Shown here: piece by piece, positions 3,241 to 9,758 of the stretch | How positions within the stretch are numbered: position 1 is the stretch's first letter | How the letters are laid out: each line of letters starts with the position of its first letter | NCBI RefSeq assembly: GCF_009914765.1 | Contig: NZ_WYDS01000005.1 | Coordinates: 62,001-126,000, forward strand | Reading direction: 5' to 3' | DNA length: 64,000 nt | DNA from: Halodesulfovibrio sp. MK-HDV | GTDB lineage: Bacteria > Desulfobacterota > Desulfovibrionia > Desulfovibrionales > Desulfovibrionaceae | The notes under the pieces: generated by a model | What the model was told of the DNA's origin: nothing | Database searches by the model: none | What the model saw: the letters and a program-made list of their open reading frames with translations, nothing else | Translations under genes and position numbers: made by a program

Positions 3241-3256
3241 CAACTTGGAAAACGCT

Positions 3257-3673
3257 ATGTTACATCGCTACCTTATTCCTTCCGTTCCATTGATTATTTC
3301 ACTTTTTTTTGCAGCTATCTGTATAGCTGCGGCTCAGGAAGCGCCTCAGGAGCCGGTTGTAATCGGGGTTCCTGCCGGGGCAAAGATCAAGAAGCCGAAG
3401 GTAGCGTTTCAGCATGCTAAACATGCTGCGTTACAGTGCGATGCGTGTCACCACATGCTGAAGGAAAATCCAGAGGTCTACTCTTGTTCATCTAAAGGCT
3501 GCCATGATCTTGGCAACCCGACTTCATCCAAAGAACGTAAGTCTATTCGTTATTTCCGAAACGCATTCCATATGAATAGTAAAGCCAGCTGTAACGGCTG
3601 TCATAAGTCCCTTAAGAAAGAGGGCAAGCCTGCAGGACCAACCTCTTGTAAGGGGTGCCATACTGTAAAATAA
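3257..3673 (+). CDS. Periplasmic tetraheme cytochrome c, class III-like
   Basis: Small electron carrier of the cytochrome c3 family, expected in the periplasm. The 138 residues begin with an export signal (hydrophobic residues 8-24, cleavage probably near AAAQE). Four covalent heme sites are visible: CDACH at 61-65, C-x4-CH at 77-83, CNGCH at 112-116 and CKGCH at 131-135. Extra histidines (53, 56, 66, 105) could be axial ligands. The fourth site is CxxCH, where the neighbouring cycA has C-x4-CH. It starts 16 bases after cbiH and may share its transcript; the ATG at 3257 is preceded by GGAA, and a TTG at 3245 is the alternative. Confidence 0.85.
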   Translation: MLHRYLIPSVPLIISLFFAAICIAAAQEAPQEPVVIGVPAGAKIKKPKVAFQHAKHAALQCDACHHMLKENPEVYSCSSKGCHDLGNPTSSKERKSIRYFRNAFHMNSKASCNGCHKSLKKEGKPAGPTSCKGCHTVK

Positions 3674-3813: not shown

Positions 3814-3859
3814 CTAATGTGAAAATCATAACATGCCTTGTGAAGGAGGTTGTACTGTC

Positions 3860-4258
3860 ATGAAAAGAGTAATGGTACTCGCTATGGCCGCAATACTTTG
3901 TGTTGCTTTTGCCATGGTTGCTTATGCTGTTGATGCCCCATCTGAACCAGTTAAGATGGACGCAACCAAGAAGCCGGTTATGTTTAACCACGCTACCCAC
4001 ACTGACTACAAATGTGGTGAATGTCACCATCCTGTAGATGGTAAAGAAAACTACAAAAAGTGTGCTACAGCAGGCTGCCACTCTGCTGCTAAAGCAGACA
4101 AAAGAAAAGCTGGTTCTTACTACAAAATTGTTCATAACAAAAAAGTTGGTAAATCCGGTATTGCAACCTGTGTTTCTTGTCACAAAAAAGTTGCTGGCAA
4201 AGACAAAGCTAAGAAAAAAGCTCTCACTGGTTGTAAAAAATCTAAATGTCACTCTTAG
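3860..4258 (+). CDS. cycA: Tetraheme cytochrome c3, type I
   Basis: Periplasmic electron carrier that in Desulfovibrio links hydrogenases and formate dehydrogenases to membrane complexes. The 132 residues match the family heme order exactly: CGECH (52-56), C-x4-CH (68-74), CVSCH (104-108) and C-x4-CH (125-131), ending TGCKKSKCHS. The motifs MDATKKPVMFNHATH and HPVDGKENYKKC are close to D. vulgaris cytochrome c3 as I recall it. A signal peptide covers residues 1-23, with cleavage near AYAVDA. The ATG at 3860 has a strong AAGGAGGT 9 bases upstream; earlier in-frame starts lack this. Own promoter and own terminator suggest a monocistronic gene. Confidence 0.95.
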   Translation: MKRVMVLAMAAILCVAFAMVAYAVDAPSEPVKMDATKKPVMFNHATHTDYKCGECHHPVDGKENYKKCATAGCHSAAKADKRKAGSYYKIVHNKKVGKSGIATCVSCHKKVAGKDKAKKKALTGCKKSKCHS

Positions 4259-4283
4259 AGGACATTTTTTGATGATGAGCGTA

Positions 4284-4310
4284 AAGACCGCCTAACGGCG
4301 GTCTTTTTTT
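4284..4310 (+). terminator. Rho-independent terminator of cycA
   Basis: Stem AAGACCGCC / GGCGGTCTT with loop TAAC and seven T, 25 bases after the cycA stop. Confidence 0.9.
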
Positions 4311-4741: not shown

Positions 4742-7700
4742 ATGTCCGATAATACAAAGAATGGAATTATCGATCTAACAGAAATCGTAGAGATGGGGAC
4801 TCCGCCTGATCCGGCGCCCGCGCAAAGCATCCCTACCAGCCCAGCAGGCACTGTTGATTTTGAAAGCGAACTGGAAGACCTTTTCAGTAGCACCGATTTT
4901 TCAGAGTTTACGGACTCTACCGATTCTAGCTCGCAGCCAGCAGCGTCCGCGAATGCTGACATTTTTCCAGACACACCAGCAAGTACGCCAGCAGTTGAAG
5001 ATATTTTGGCAGACTTAGCGCCGGAGGTGGCGGCTTCACCCCCTGTGCAGGATATAGCTGCTGAAGCTGCTCCGTCTTTTGAGTCTGATTTAGATGCCTT
5101 ACTTGACTCCGCTGATTCGAAGGATTCTTCGGTCGGGTTTGATGCTGACTTTGAAGATCTGTTGAGTGAATTTTCAGATTCTCCGACTTCTTCAACTGCT
5201 CCTGCATATCAACCGGATTTTGAAGAGGATTTATCCTCAATGTCTTTGGGCTCTGCTGACCCTGAGCCTGTTGTCGCAGAACCTGCTCCGCAGCCTCAGG
5301 CAGTGGCTCCGGAACCAGTGCACGCAACAGAATCTAATATTGCAGATGTGAATGCTGCGGATGTTGACGACTTGTTTGCAGATTTGGACTTTGAATTAGG
5401 CGAAGCTCCGGCTGCACCAGCTGCTGAGGCTAAACCGGCACCAGTAGAAGCTCCACCTGTTGCTCCGGCAGAGCAAAGTGCTTTTGAAGAGGATGACCTC
5501 TTCGCAGGTTTTGATTTTGAACTGGACCCGATGGAATCTGCGCCGATAGAAGCCCCTGCACCACGGGCTGCTTCTTTCACCGCTGAAGAACCACAAGCCA
5601 GCGCAGATGATGATCTGTTTGCAGATTTGGGTTTAGAGTTTGATCTGGATGAACTGGACGCAAAGCCTGCGGCAGCTCCTCAGGTAAAAGCTCCAGAGAT
5701 GGAAGCTCCTGTGGCAGCACCGACTCCTGCACCAGCAACAGAATCCAACATTGCGGATGTTAATGCTTCGGATGTTGACGATCTTTTTTCAGACTTGGAC
5801 TTTGAGCTTGGTGAAATGCCGGGTGAATCTGTACCGGCCAGTGTGCCGGCAAGTACACCGGAGCCTGTAGCGCCTCCAGTTGCAGCTGCAAGTCCATCTC
5901 CTGTTGATAACACCTCGTTAGATGATCCATTTGATGTAGACGATATTTTAAGTGAGTTCAGCGATGATGTAACTCCTCAGCCAACTGCGGAAGCTGCGGA
6001 AGATTTTGATCTTGCTGATCTTGATGAATTACTCAGAGTTGATAACGAGCCTGCACAAGCGCCACGTACTGACTTAACACCTGCTGATGGAACCACTCTT
6101 GATTCTGAAGAAGTTGAGATGGACGACATTGGCTTCTTGTTGAGTGAATTCGACGATAATGGCGGCACACAGGCTGCTGCATCAGCGCCACAGCCACAGC
6201 CGGAACCAGTGTTTGCGCCGGAACCGCCTGTTGCTCCAGAATTTGCATTTGAACCGGCTGCACCAGTAGAACCTGTTGTTTCTGAAGTGGCAGAGCCTGC
6301 CGCTCCAGTTGATGGTTCCATGTTTGATGCAGAAATTGACGCACTTCTTGATGACTTGGAAATGGCATCTGTTGAGCCAATTGCACCTATTTCGCAGGAG
6401 CCATCAGCACCTGTTGCAGAACCAATCGTGGAGTCTGTTGCAGATCCAGTAATGGAGCCTGTGGCACCACAGTTTGCGCAGCCTGACGATAGCCTGTTTG
6501 ATGCAGTTTCTGATGACGCGGCATTGTCTGCTGAACCGGAAAGCCTTGACACACTGGAAGATGATTTTGATTTAGATGCATTGCTCGATAACGATCAGTC
6601 CGACGGTGAAGTTGCTCCGGAGTTTGCGACTCCAGAAATGGGCGCTGCCTTAGATGTAGAAGACGACCTTGGTGCAGAAATTGATGCTTTGCTTAACGAG
6701 GTTCCTCAAGAAGCACCTGCCGCTCCTGAAGTTCAGGCAGTTGCCGAAGAGATGTCTGAAGAGCAGAAGACCGCTTCTCCACTCGGTTCTGCTGATGAAT
6801 TTGAGTCCATTCTTGATGAACTGGATTCTCTTCTTGATGAACAGGAAGCACTCGAACCAGCTATGGAAGCCGCATCAGTCGATCCTGTTGATGAATTGCT
6901 TGCTACACCGGTTGAAGACGTTCTTCAGGACGATGCAGGGTTTGATTTCGACTCAGAACCTGAGCTTGATTTTGATCCTGAACCAATGGTTGATATGGTG
7001 CCGGAACCGGTAATGGAAGCTGCTCCTGTTGTGCCTTCTGCGCCTGAGTTCGCACCAGAACCAGTGGCTGCTGCACCTGTGTTTGAAGAAGCGGCAACCG
7101 TTGAACCAGATTTAGAAATGGAACTGGGACAGCTGACCGACCCGACTTCATTAGAAGAAGACTTAGACTCAACTCTTGATAGAATTTTAGGCGATGAACC
7201 TCTTTCCATGGAAGATGTTGTTGAAGAAGCACCACAGCAAGCTTCAGAACAGGCCGCAGAACCGGCAGCGTTCACGCATGACGATATTGATGCCTTATTG
7301 GCTGATTCTGAGATTTCAGAAGAGCCAGTAATGGAAATGCCAGTACCGGAAGAACCAGTCTTCGAAGCAGCTATGCCAGAAGATCTACTTACGGAAGAAC
7401 TGATTGCTGAAGAAGTTCAGCCTGAAGCTCCGGCGTTTGAAGAACCGGCATTTATGGAAGAAGCTCCGGTAGTGGAAGAACCAATGTTCGACGCGCCAGA
7501 AGCCATGGAATCAACAGGACTGGAGCAAGAAATGTTTGCTCAGGATAATGCTGTTGAGCCAGAACTTCCAGTAGAGCCTGCTGTTGAAGAGATGATGGCA
7601 GCACCAGATTTCGAGGACATCGCGGGTATCGCGGAAGAGCCTGTTGCTGAATTTGCTGCGGAGCAAGTTGTTCAGCAGGAAGAACCACAGGATTCTCTTG

Positions 7701-8416
7701 AAGAGCCGAATTCCGTTTCTGAGGCAATGGATGCCATGGAAGATGACATTCCATTGGTTGACCTTGAGCAGGAAGCAATGGCAGATCTTGAATCTCTTAC
7801 CGAGATTCAGCCTGAATCTCTTGATGCACCGGAAGAATTACTCGATTCTGTCGACATGACAGAGGAGGGTTTTGATGCTGGACTGAACATGGATGATATT
7901 AATGAGAATGCCTCTCCTGTGCCGCCTAATGCGAGCATAGAGGATCTCATGAGAGAATCCTCAGTGGATGCGCCTGAATTCTCCGATGCTTCAATGGAAA
8001 TGCTGGATACTATGCCGGCAGTAAGCTCAGCTATCCAGAATGATCCTGCGTATGATGTTCCGCCTGCTCCGGCTATGACTCCGGAAGAGTTTGCAGAGCT
8101 GACAGAACGCATTTACTATCTGGAAAGCACGTTACAGAATGTTATTGCTATGCAGGAATCTTTTGTTGCTCCAGAGCCACCGGCTGTGGAGAAAAAGGTA
8201 CTTGTGAAAGCAATCGACGAGGCTTTCAATATGGATGGTCCATTAATGGCGCGTGTCCTGAGCGCTGTTGAAGTTCGAACAGAAACTCTGATTGAATCTA
8301 TGGGCACCCGCATTGAAAGCCAGATAAAAGGGGCGATTGAACAGACTGCGGCGAAGTCCGCAGCACAAGTTATTCGTGAAGAGCTTCAAGCCTTACTGGC
8401 AGAAGACTTCACCTAG
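4742..8416 (+). CDS. Large acidic, repeat-bearing protein of unknown function
   Basis: I do not recognise the family. The 1224 residues are dominated by Asp, Glu, Ala and Pro with almost no aromatic core and no cysteine, signal peptide or membrane segment, so residues 1-1105 are probably disordered. Short hydrophobic-acidic motifs recur: SDLDALLDS (115), AEIDALLDDLE (530), DLDALLDND (610), AEIDALLNEV (646), HDDIDALLADSE (846), and DDLFADLDFEL-type boxes at 209, 251, 290 and 347. A 27-residue block starting ATESNIADVN occurs at 195-221 and 332-358. The last 115 residues differ in character: TPEEFAELTERIYYLESTL looks coiled-coil, followed by a basic-acidic helical tail ending LLAEDFT. The EIDALL motif resembles the CheY-binding peptide at the FliM N-terminus. 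That similarity is the only functional hint, and it is inference. The gene stands alone, with a separate terminator. Confidence 0.8.
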   Translation: MSDNTKNGIIDLTEIVEMGTPPDPAPAQSIPTSPAGTVDFESELEDLFSSTDFSEFTDSTDSSSQPAASANADIFPDTPASTPAVEDILADLAPEVAASPPVQDIAAEAAPSFESDLDALLDSADSKDSSVGFDADFEDLLSEFSDSPTSSTAPAYQPDFEEDLSSMSLGSADPEPVVAEPAPQPQAVAPEPVHATESNIADVNAADVDDLFADLDFELGEAPAAPAAEAKPAPVEAPPVAPAEQSAFEEDDLFAGFDFELDPMESAPIEAPAPRAASFTAEEPQASADDDLFADLGLEFDLDELDAKPAAAPQVKAPEMEAPVAAPTPAPATESNIADVNASDVDDLFSDLDFELGEMPGESVPASVPASTPEPVAPPVAAASPSPVDNTSLDDPFDVDDILSEFSDDVTPQPTAEAAEDFDLADLDELLRVDNEPAQAPRTDLTPADGTTLDSEEVEMDDIGFLLSEFDDNGGTQAAASAPQPQPEPVFAPEPPVAPEFAFEPAAPVEPVVSEVAEPAAPVDGSMFDAEIDALLDDLEMASVEPIAPISQEPSAPVAEPIVESVADPVMEPVAPQFAQPDDSLFDAVSDDAALSAEPESLDTLEDDFDLDALLDNDQSDGEVAPEFATPEMGAALDVEDDLGAEIDALLNEVPQEAPAAPEVQAVAEEMSEEQKTASPLGSADEFESILDELDSLLDEQEALEPAMEAASVDPVDELLATPVEDVLQDDAGFDFDSEPELDFDPEPMVDMVPEPVMEAAPVVPSAPEFAPEPVAAAPVFEEAATVEPDLEMELGQLTDPTSLEEDLDSTLDRILGDEPLSMEDVVEEAPQQASEQAAEPAAFTHDDIDALLADSEISEEPVMEMPVPEEPVFEAAMPEDLLTEELIAEEVQPEAPAFEEPAFMEEAPVVEEPMFDAPEAMESTGLEQEMFAQDNAVEPELPVEPAVEEMMAAPDFEDIAGIAEEPVAEFAAEQVVQQEEPQDSLEEPNSVSEAMDAMEDDIPLVDLEQEAMADLESLTEIQPESLDAPEELLDSVDMTEEGFDAGLNMDDINENASPVPPNASIEDLMRESSVDAPEFSDASMEMLDTMPAVSSAIQNDPAYDVPPAPAMTPEEFAELTERIYYLESTLQNVIAMQESFVAPEPPAVEKKVLVKAIDEAFNMDGPLMARVLSAVEVRTETLIESMGTRIESQIKGAIEQTAAKSAAQVIREELQALLAEDFT
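5324..5815 (+). repeat. Two copies of an 81-bp coding repeat (5324-5404 and 5735-5815)
   Basis: The copies encode 27 residues each, starting ATESNIADVN and ending DFELGE. They differ at only three residues (A/S, A/S within the boxes and close neighbours) but at many third codon positions. The protein sequence has therefore been conserved while synonymous sites drifted, which points to selection on the peptide. Confidence 0.8.
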
Positions 8417-8460: not shown

Positions 8461-8482
8461 CCAGTTGTTAATACGTACTACA

Positions 8483-8515
8483 AGAGGGCTGCGTGAATCG
8501 CAGCTCTCTTTTCTT
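8483..8515 (+). terminator. Rho-independent terminator
   Basis: Stem AGAGGGCTGCG / CGCAGCTCTCT with one mismatch, loop TGAAT, then a T-rich tract. It ends the acidic protein transcript. Confidence 0.7.
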
Positions 8516-8679
8516 GTGGTAACGGTGATGGGAATGAGCGTGCAGCTTTTCTTGGAAACATATGGGTATCAGCAAAAAGATGTGTCATTTTGCTTGAAGT
8601 TCCAAGAAATATAGCTTAGCTGTTCGGTCAAACAGCCTTTTTATGGGGCGTACGACTTTTTAGTATCAGGAGTAGGTTG

Positions 8680-9234
8680 ATGCGTGATAATTTAGCGAAT
8701 CCAGCACCACTCGGTCTTATGGGCTTTGGTATGACCACAGTGTTGTTGAACATTCACAATGCAGGATTTTTTCCAATCTCTGCAATGATCCTTGCAATGG
8801 GTATTTTTTACGGCGGTACTGCTCAGGTAATCGCCGGCATTATGGAATTTAAAAAAGGTAATACTTTCGGTACAACCGCTTTTACCTCTTACGGATTCTT
8901 CTGGCTTACTTTGGTGGGACTTATTGTCATGCCTAAGCTTGGCTGGGCAGAAGCAACCCCTCATGCTTACATGGGCTGCTACCTTGCAATGTGGGGTGTT
9001 TTTACTTTCTTCATGTTCCTTGGAACACTTAAAAGTAACTTCTGTATTAAATTTATCTTCGGCTCCCTTACCGTTTTGTTCTTCTTGCTTGCAATCCGTG
9101 ATTTCACCGGTTCTGCACTCATCGGAACTATCGCAGGGTACGAAGGTATCGTTTGTGGTCTGTCTGCAATTTATCTTGCAATGGCAGAGGTACTTAATGA
9201 AGTTTACGACAGGGTTGTGCTGCCAATCGGCTAG
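8680..9234 (+). CDS. satP: Acetate/succinate transporter, SatP (GPR1/FUN34/YaaH) family
   Basis: Inner-membrane carrier for acetate and related short carboxylates. The 184 residues start with the family signature [14 protein letters not shown] and hold about six membrane segments, with conserved [15 protein letters not shown] near residue 45. I use the ATG at 8680, preceded by CAGGAG; an adjacent TTG is in frame. The gene is monocistronic. In a sulfate reducer, which excretes acetate when oxidising lactate incompletely, export is as likely as uptake. The exact substrate cannot be read from sequence. Confidence 0.9.
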
Positions 9235-9245
9235 CATCTCTATAT

Positions 9246-9280
9246 AAAGAGGAGTGCGCGCTGCTTCTCCTCTGCCCTTT
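9246..9280 (+). terminator. Weak terminator after satP
   Basis: AGAGGAG pairs with CTCCTCT across a 12-base loop, followed by GCCC and five T. Less convincing than the hairpin 65 bases further on. Confidence 0.4.
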
Positions 9281-9342
9281 TTCCTTGGCTTGTTTACTTG
9301 CCAAGCGGGCATTTTTCACGATCAGGACTGAGTGAAATATTT

Positions 9343-9378
9343 AAGACCGGAAAAGCTATTCTTTTCCGGTCTTTTTTT
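9343..9378 (+). terminator. Rho-independent terminator
   Basis: Perfect 12-bp stem AGACCGGAAAAG / CTTTTCCGGTCT, loop CTATT, then seven T. Strong terminator for the satP transcript. The rest of the gap up to 9758 holds no supported gene; a 93-codon frame at 9512-9793 overlaps the next gene and lacks any recognisable feature. Confidence 0.9.
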
Positions 9379-9758
9379 ATGCATTTTATAAAAAAAGGTA
9401 TGATGCGTCGCTTTTTTTATGACGATGTAACCGTTTTCATCCCTATGAAACGCTGTTTTAAAGCTTTTAAAGTGTTCCCTAGTTCTCTGTAATGTTAGGG
9501 TAAGTGGCGTTTTGGCCAAGACTTCCCCTTATATTCACACCATAGTTGCAAAAGTTTTAAAAGCACCATATAAAGCAAAAAATGAAAACAGATTGATTTG
9601 TTTGCTGCACTGTTTTCATAACACTGCACTGCAAACAGAATATTTCAGTGTAGATCGTTTTTGTCGTGAAGACATAACTTACGATGCCTCCCCTCAGTCC
9701 AAGCACGCGTTTTGGGGATTAAGCATCCAGTTTGAAAACCATAACGCGTTTATGACTT

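Follow-up and report, generated by a model that had tools for sequence, protein, structure and literature searches.

The gene considered here occupies positions 4742 to 8416 on the forward strand of the window, by which is meant the whole 64,000-nucleotide (nt) stretch of Halodesulfovibrio sp. MK-HDV that was analysed (contig NZ_WYDS01000005.1, positions 62,001 to 126,000). It encodes an acidic protein of 1224 amino acids (aa) that carries an array of short EIDALL-like motifs and may serve as a multivalent, hub-like scaffold. The protein has a net charge of -297; Asp and Glu make up 26% of its residues, Lys and Arg 1.7%, and Cys and Trp are absent. The full protein has no match in Pfam or NCBIfam, and none was found by sequence in the Protein Data Bank (PDB). 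The highest hydropathy over 19 residues is 0.82, indicating that the protein contains no transmembrane-like hydrophobic segment. The gene and the features within it are the following.

4742..8416, + strand: hub-like acidic protein gene; open reading frame with an ATG start, 1224 aa
4766..4792, + strand: N-terminal motif IIDLTEIVE, residues 9-17, in the conserved island of residues 1-25
4868..4885, + strand: helical motif ELEDLF at residue 43, the copy closest to the N-terminus; identical in 6/6 orthologues; AlphaFold2 helix at residues 40-50
5087..5104, + strand: DLDALL at residue 116, a [DE][ILV]DALL site; AlphaFold2 helix at 113-126
5147..5164, + strand: DFEDLL at residue 136; identical in 6/6 orthologues; AlphaFold2 helix at 130-145
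5324..5414, + strand: copy 1 of a 91-nt internal duplication, carrying DVDDLF; 80% identical to 5735-5825
5360..5377, + strand: DVDDLF at residue 207; AlphaFold2 helix at 205-214
5735..5825, + strand: copy 2 of the 91-nt duplication, with DVDDLF at residue 344 (5771-5788)
5933..5950, + strand: DVDDIL at residue 398, from the orthologue alignment
6017..6034, + strand: DLDELL at residue 426, from the orthologue alignment
6332..6349, + strand: EIDALL at residue 531, a [DE][ILV]DALL site; in the conserved island of residues 522-546
6569..6586, + strand: DLDALL at residue 610, a [DE][ILV]DALL site; lost in one of six orthologues
6677..6694, + strand: EIDALL at residue 646, a [DE][ILV]DALL site
6797..6835, + strand: double motif EFESIL..ELDSLL, residues 686-698; in the conserved island of residues 684-703
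7283..7300, + strand: DIDALL at residue 848, a [DE][ILV]DALL site
8081..8410, + strand: C-terminal helical domain; AlphaFold2 helices at residues 1114-1141, 1148-1161 and 1167-1223
8309..8404, + strand: PopZ-resembling terminal segment with AA..IREE, residues 1190-1221; profile match to PopZ C-termini

The motif array is real and exceeds chance. Five [DE][ILV]DALL sites are present, at residues 116, 531, 610, 646 and 848, whereas 0.007 are expected from shuffling the whole protein and 0.011 from shuffling within 40-residue blocks; the maximum in 2000 shuffles of either kind was 1. With a looser core, 13 sites are observed against 0.12-0.14 expected, and the shuffle maximum was 3. An earlier sequence-only reading had placed EIDALL-like repeats at 115, 530, 610, 646 and 846, and all five were recovered within two residues of those positions. 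The looser variants that it listed (ELDSLLDE 693, PVDELL 715, DLDELL 427) likewise correspond to ELDSLL at 693, VDELL at 716 and DLDELL at 426. When the whole genome was searched with a degenerate DNA pattern for [DE]-Phi-[DE]-A-[LF]-[LF], 24 matches were obtained compared to 18 for a reversed control; the hub-like gene accounts for five of the 24 and FliM for one. The corresponding pattern for IIDLTEIVE matches the genome once, at 4766..4792.

The motifs are also the most conserved part of the disordered region. Nine other Halodesulfovibrio genomes were searched; five contain full-length orthologues and four contain shorter, divergent members, which were excluded from the comparison of motif conservation (the window protein plus five full-length orthologues). 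Identity to the window protein is 87% for the 13 motif 6-mers, 63% for their flanks and 42% for the remaining disordered region, and none of 5000 random placements reached 87%. The effect holds within residue classes, with conservation of 0.91 inside versus 0.54 outside the motifs for Leu and 0.90 versus 0.59 for Asp. The conserved islands comprise residues 1-25, most motifs, the C-terminus and a small number of other stretches of acidic and hydrophobic residues. Conservation of the motifs with drifting linkers had been named beforehand as support for a scaffold, and this is the pattern seen across the six full-length proteins. An alternative is that the protein does no docking at all and is a commonplace acidic, low-complexity chain that owes its hydrophobic patches to compositional bias; its extremely skewed composition and poorly conserved linkers would fit this. 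However, shuffles that preserve global or local composition yield almost no such motifs, which refutes this explanation for the motif count, and the conserved positions cluster in the motifs and at the ends of a protein whose family is near-universal in its order. The explanation is therefore very improbable.

Structure prediction is consistent with helical recognition motifs along a disordered chain. For residues 1-240, AlphaFold2, run on a shallow alignment of four rows, predicts short helices at all four strict sites in this part (43, 116, 136 and 207), with a confidence score (pLDDT) of about 72-82 in ten-residue blocks at the motif helices and values below 50 across six stretches of linker. 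The last 124 residues are predicted as helices with a mean pLDDT of 81 and a global score (pTM) of 0.32 from a shallow six-row alignment; the packing of these helices is not reliable because of the low pTM. The predicted motif helices, low-scoring linkers and C-terminal helices together support the earlier description of a disordered multivalent chain with a helical tail. A profile of the C-terminus gave nine matches to PDB sequences (E 0.0019-0.96), mostly to designed or coiled-coil helical proteins.

The protein belongs to a family found throughout the Desulfovibrionales. The C-terminal profile has a single match per genome in 56 of 59 genomes of the order, and in 50 of the 52 of good quality; only G049 has a weak second match. 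Two C-terminal alignments were used, A1 with 19 rows and A3 with the 56 rows of the family. Single-sequence queries were weaker, as the full protein matched 6 of 59 relatives and its own C-terminus matched 22 of 59 (23 places). Among the matches to the C-terminus, L054, L055 (chemoreceptor-like), L057 (FAD-oxidase-like) and L058 were judged false on reading. The N-terminal 110 and last 75 residues of the 56 members reveal a shared plan, in which an N-terminal IIDLTDIVE-like stretch is followed by an acidic chain that differs in length between members and by C-terminal helices ending in AAxxIREEI. The IIDLTDIVEEG-like stretch is present in a loose form in 50 of 56 members and in a strict form in 34. 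By a loose pattern, at least 44 of 56 members have a counterpart of the FEQELEDLF/LDEELDDLL type no more than 80 residues away from this stretch. The count is a lower bound, since the anchor places the N-terminal motif wrongly in some sequences, e.g. G013 and G030, which do have FEQELEDLF/FEQELEELF. The C-terminal consensus is approximately L..EL...IEK.VP.AAARIIREEI.AL; all 19 rows of A1 have AA..IREE, and AA, R and E are conserved in at least 90% of the 56 rows of A3. The chain reaches 1383 aa. A single member, L166 (G033), exceeds a hydropathy of 1.6 per 19 residues, with 2.01 at residue 345, which is possibly a membrane segment judging from its hydrophobicity.

Profile A1 was also searched across 297 genomes sampled over the phylum and gave 12 matches, 11 of them in the same family, the window's own genome included. 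The twelfth, from G235, is a receiver-domain protein outside it. This protein (L084, 1477-2142, - strand), from outside the order, has an REEI-like C-terminus fused to a receiver domain (Response_reg, E 5e-8), followed by ...TAEKVIREEMERL. The fusion would provide a natural link between the REEI-type tail and response regulators.

Across the 56 members, 250 strict sites are found compared to 15.7 expected by shuffling, with 0-15 per member. Conservation does not centre on the alanine; across the family the core reads [DE]-[ILVF]-[DE]-x-[LI]-[LF]. In a set of 146 sites from 48 of the 56 genomes (eight of Halodesulfovibrio were dropped as near-duplicates), the residue three places ahead of the core is F or L at 53 sites, and the one three places beyond it is L at 30. 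The sequence-only reading had counted homologues that keep the acidic linkers but not the motifs as evidence against itself, and these exist in part: G019 retains one site in 1153 aa and G024 one in 1343 aa, where about 0.6 and 0.5 sites, respectively, are expected by chance. The array grows by in-frame duplication, as indicated by the 91-nt pair in the window and by a 264-nt unit (88 codons) with DLDDLF that occurs in three tandem copies in L041 (7046-7837). Variation in copy number from 0 to 15 through duplication is what would be expected if the motifs were stickers, attaching to one another or to the C-terminal helices of the same protein and thereby governing how a self-assembling acidic polymer condenses, so that copy number tunes its material properties. 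Such a role is plausible for amphipathic helices embedded in acidic sequence. However, single motifs hold their place and identity in orthologues, beyond the needs of a tunable array, and stickers do not predict the association with the chemotaxis gene cheW described below. A sticker function is thus considered unlikely.

The plan of the family resembles that of known hub proteins. PopZ, a polar organiser of Alphaproteobacteria, is built from a short helix that binds clients, a disordered region rich in acidic residues and proline, and a helical domain for oligomerisation; the properties of PopZ condensates are set by attraction between oligomerisation domains versus repulsion by the disordered region (PMC9512792). 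Like PopZ, the family has a short N-terminal motif region, an acidic proline-containing disordered chain and C-terminal helices. Unlike PopZ, it has arrays of up to 15 helical motifs and a chain of up to 1383 aa. HubP and FimV are polar landmarks of Gammaproteobacteria; HubP has imperfect acidic repeats whose number is species-dependent, and it recruits polar proteins (PMC12918733 and PMC8789113). The window protein is like HubP/FimV in its very long acidic chain and cytoplasmic nature, but lacks the transmembrane helix and, because there is no Pfam match, has no recognised periplasmic LysM domain or C-terminal TPR/FimV domain.

A resemblance to PopZ was also detected by profile comparison. 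Alignment A3 was compared using hhalign with A4, a shallow five-row PopZ alignment made of the C-termini of L188-L191 and of the Caulobacter protein. The two directions gave E 0.00035 (probability 37.5) and 0.0021 (13.5), over 32-33 columns in a single register that pairs hydrophobic positions, a proline and REEI. The PopZ feature in question is a helix-turn-helix segment at the C-terminus with the register LP....R..REEI, and the match to it is tentative. The family has the proline at that position in 27 of 56 rows by a script anchor that misplaces some rows. No control was as good as the PopZ match, whether 200 column shuffles, 200 seven-column-block shuffles or 88 decoys, the latter being partly overlapping windows from alignments of neighbouring, unrelated genes. 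Over the same columns as the shuffles the match scored 23.3, and over the full alignment 24.7, compared to 20.0 for the best shuffle and 17.2 for the best decoy. It was obtained both with rows from the window's taxonomic family (E 0.0019) and with rows from other families (E 0.0011). Within the disordered region, Caulobacter PopZ contains DDEVLELTDPI (sequence of PDB 6XRY) and Sphingomonas PopZ contains VLELSD, similar to DDIIELTDIVE of the family; the PopZ sequences of Shinella and Sinorhizobium showed no LTD stretch. In one member, L160 (G025), the LTD-like motif is repeated in the N-terminal part (IIELMDVME, VLELTEALDED, ILDLTDPLEDD), close to EVLELTDP of PopZ.

Based on these results, we give an even chance to the reading that the protein, which represents in Halodesulfovibrio a family near-universal among the Desulfovibrionales, is a cytoplasmic PopZ/HubP-like hub, or scaffold. 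That it works like PopZ is proposed with moderate confidence. The C-terminal helices would self-assemble, the repulsive acidic chain would space the assembly and keep it open, and the motifs would capture clients through weak multivalent binding. The two ends of the protein may carry an older core function. By analogy with PopZ and HubP, the assembly would be located at the cell pole.

The distribution of the motifs gives a hint about the clients. Members from the four genomes without CheW and FliM (G015, G021, G034 and G036) have 0, 0, 0 and 1 strict sites, whereas at least one strict site is present in 50 of the 52 remaining members; the other two, G040 and G045, have CheW and no strict site. 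The single motif retained in G036 is a good one (DFEDIEDLF). The four CheW-less members are shorter, 174-284 aa compared to a median of 568 aa (range 242-1375), where length is counted from the N-terminal motif or taken in full where the motif pattern failed. However, eight of the nine CheW-positive members that are short (256-356 aa) carry at least one site, so motif loss is not a matter of length alone. Ten further members came from beyond the 56; six of these loci are cut at the 5' side, making their motif counts lower bounds. One, from G293, is a 185-aa frame with no sites in a genome without CheW, while six CheW-positive genomes of the same genus (g40) have 3-8 sites. The motif-free protein of G293 was seen before the search for its CheW, and no prediction had been written down. 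Each of the nine others comes from a genome with CheW and has one or more sites. With G235 omitted from the count, its match being the receiver-domain protein, motifs are present in 1 of 5 members without CheW and in 59 of 61 with CheW (Fisher p 1e-4, relatedness ignored). The five CheW-less genomes (the four above and G293) span five genera and two families. Since the motifs tend to vanish with the chemotaxis genes while the two ends stay, the most plausible clients are proteins of chemotaxis or of the flagellum, with receiver domains as the leading candidates. A family member is retained in the four genomes without FliM and CheW; chemotaxis cannot be the core function, because the ends of the protein persist without it.

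A specific form of the hub reading is that the motifs are a docking array for CheY, in which each [DE]-Phi-[DE]-x-L-L helix would bind CheY at the surface where FliM and CheZ dock and the array would concentrate or buffer phosphorylated CheY. CheZ is a known CheY ligand. A core [DE]-V-D-x-L-L is common to the N-terminus of FliM (ILAQDEVDALLRGL, in a protein that starts MNKILAQDEVDALLRGL) and the C-terminal end of CheZ (SQSDVDNLLASLGL) of the same genome, and motif presence follows CheW. EIDALL has been described as a conserved motif through which FliM/FliY bind CheY (PMC9126983). A receiver-binding hub has precedent, since the N-terminus of PopZ binds the receiver CpdR, with the largest changes by nuclear magnetic resonance (NMR) at E7-E23 and a weaker interaction upon phosphorylation (PMC11519897). 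The family differs from FliM and CheZ in two respects. First, FliM and CheZ have one docking copy at a chain end, whereas the family has up to 15 internal copies. Second, the FliM/CheZ core [DE]-Phi-D-x-L-L is present in the family, but the Gln at position -2 of the core, found in 10/10 FliM and 11/11 CheZ sequences, occurs at 8 of 146 family sites and is missing from the other 138. This Gln was read off those 21 sequences in the present analysis and is not a published criterion. In addition, G036 keeps its good motif without FliM and CheW, G040 and G045 have CheW and no strict site, and chemotaxis genes are missing from the neighbouring genes scanned, though the flagellar export genes fliP and fliQ lie downstream in one subgroup. 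The array is a possible, but improbable, docking site for CheY. The direct CheY binding proposed earlier is not supported, given the scarcity of the FliM/CheZ-type Gln and the persistence of the family without chemotaxis. More doubtful still is a highly divergent, hitherto unrecognised PopZ-type organiser of the Desulfovibrionales in which a FliM/CheZ-like array of up to 15 motifs replaces the single client helix and gathers phosphorylated CheY-family receivers at the pole, coupling chemotaxis to polarity.

Several results weigh against the PopZ/HubP-like hub. The hhalign probabilities are low (13-37%) and depend on the shallow PopZ alignment, and the match vanishes with Halodesulfovibrio rows alone (E 0.14). 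The Pfam PopZ model (DUF2497, PF10691), which scores PopZ from L188 at 89 bits and from L190 at 83 bits, has no match over the cut-off in 39 relative genomes; none of the 13 weak matches listed falls at the family gene. PF10691 is also not among the 25 commonest of 347 families weakly matched by the 56 C-termini. A pattern for the PopZ-type N-terminal helix (MEEILASIRRII type) is found in 0/56 members versus 3/4 PopZ loci, the fourth locus, L189, having been read as a late-starting 106-aa open frame. In a Sinorhizobium record valS adjoins popZ, and part of valS has no match in the family loci, which extend from a few kb to 18 kb each. As the Pfam model, the N-terminal helix and the valS neighbour are all negative, the protein is not filed as a member of PopZ. 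A Foldseek search with the C-terminal model returned a sole PDB match at E 9.5. With regard to the clients, the CheW association is a tally of genomes rather than of independent losses, and there is no correlation between the number of motifs and the number of CheW copies (Spearman 0.18, p 0.19).

Searches of the open-access literature revealed no description of a polar organiser of Desulfovibrio-type bacteria among the matches listed. If the family is a hub, an order-wide gene without a Pfam name gains a role, and the PopZ-like plan of short motif, acidic chain and self-assembling helices reaches another phylum. It would also provide a natural series, with 0 to 15 motif copies and with and without chemotaxis, in which to probe client choice by multivalent disordered hubs.

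The gene neighbourhood gives no clear functional partner. None of seven neighbours in the window and ten neighbours in relatives that were scanned is a chemotaxis gene. Upstream in the window are hemL, cbiG, cobJ and cytochrome c3, with counterparts in relatives, and in some other genera menG/ubiE, a UDP-sugar dehydrogenase and a polyprenyl synthase are downstream. In a second subgroup of the genus, fliP lies just downstream of the family gene and convergent with it, in L043, L044, L046 and L047, and fliQ is likewise downstream in L043, L046 and L047; in L043 the two genes are at 8576-9672, and these calls come from Pfam in L043 and from clustering in the other three. Two tandem class III cytochrome c genes are found upstream in the window, at 3245-3673 and 3833-4258 (Cytochrom_CIII, E 1.7e-20 and 3.8e-21). 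Two terminator-like stem-loops, identified by pattern only, flank the hub-like gene.

4283..4306, + strand: terminator-like stem-loop 3' of the upstream cytochrome c3 gene
8482..8510, + strand: terminator-like stem-loop 3' of the hub-like gene

Because the first of these stands after the upstream cytochrome c3 gene, it suggests that the hub-like gene is its own unit.

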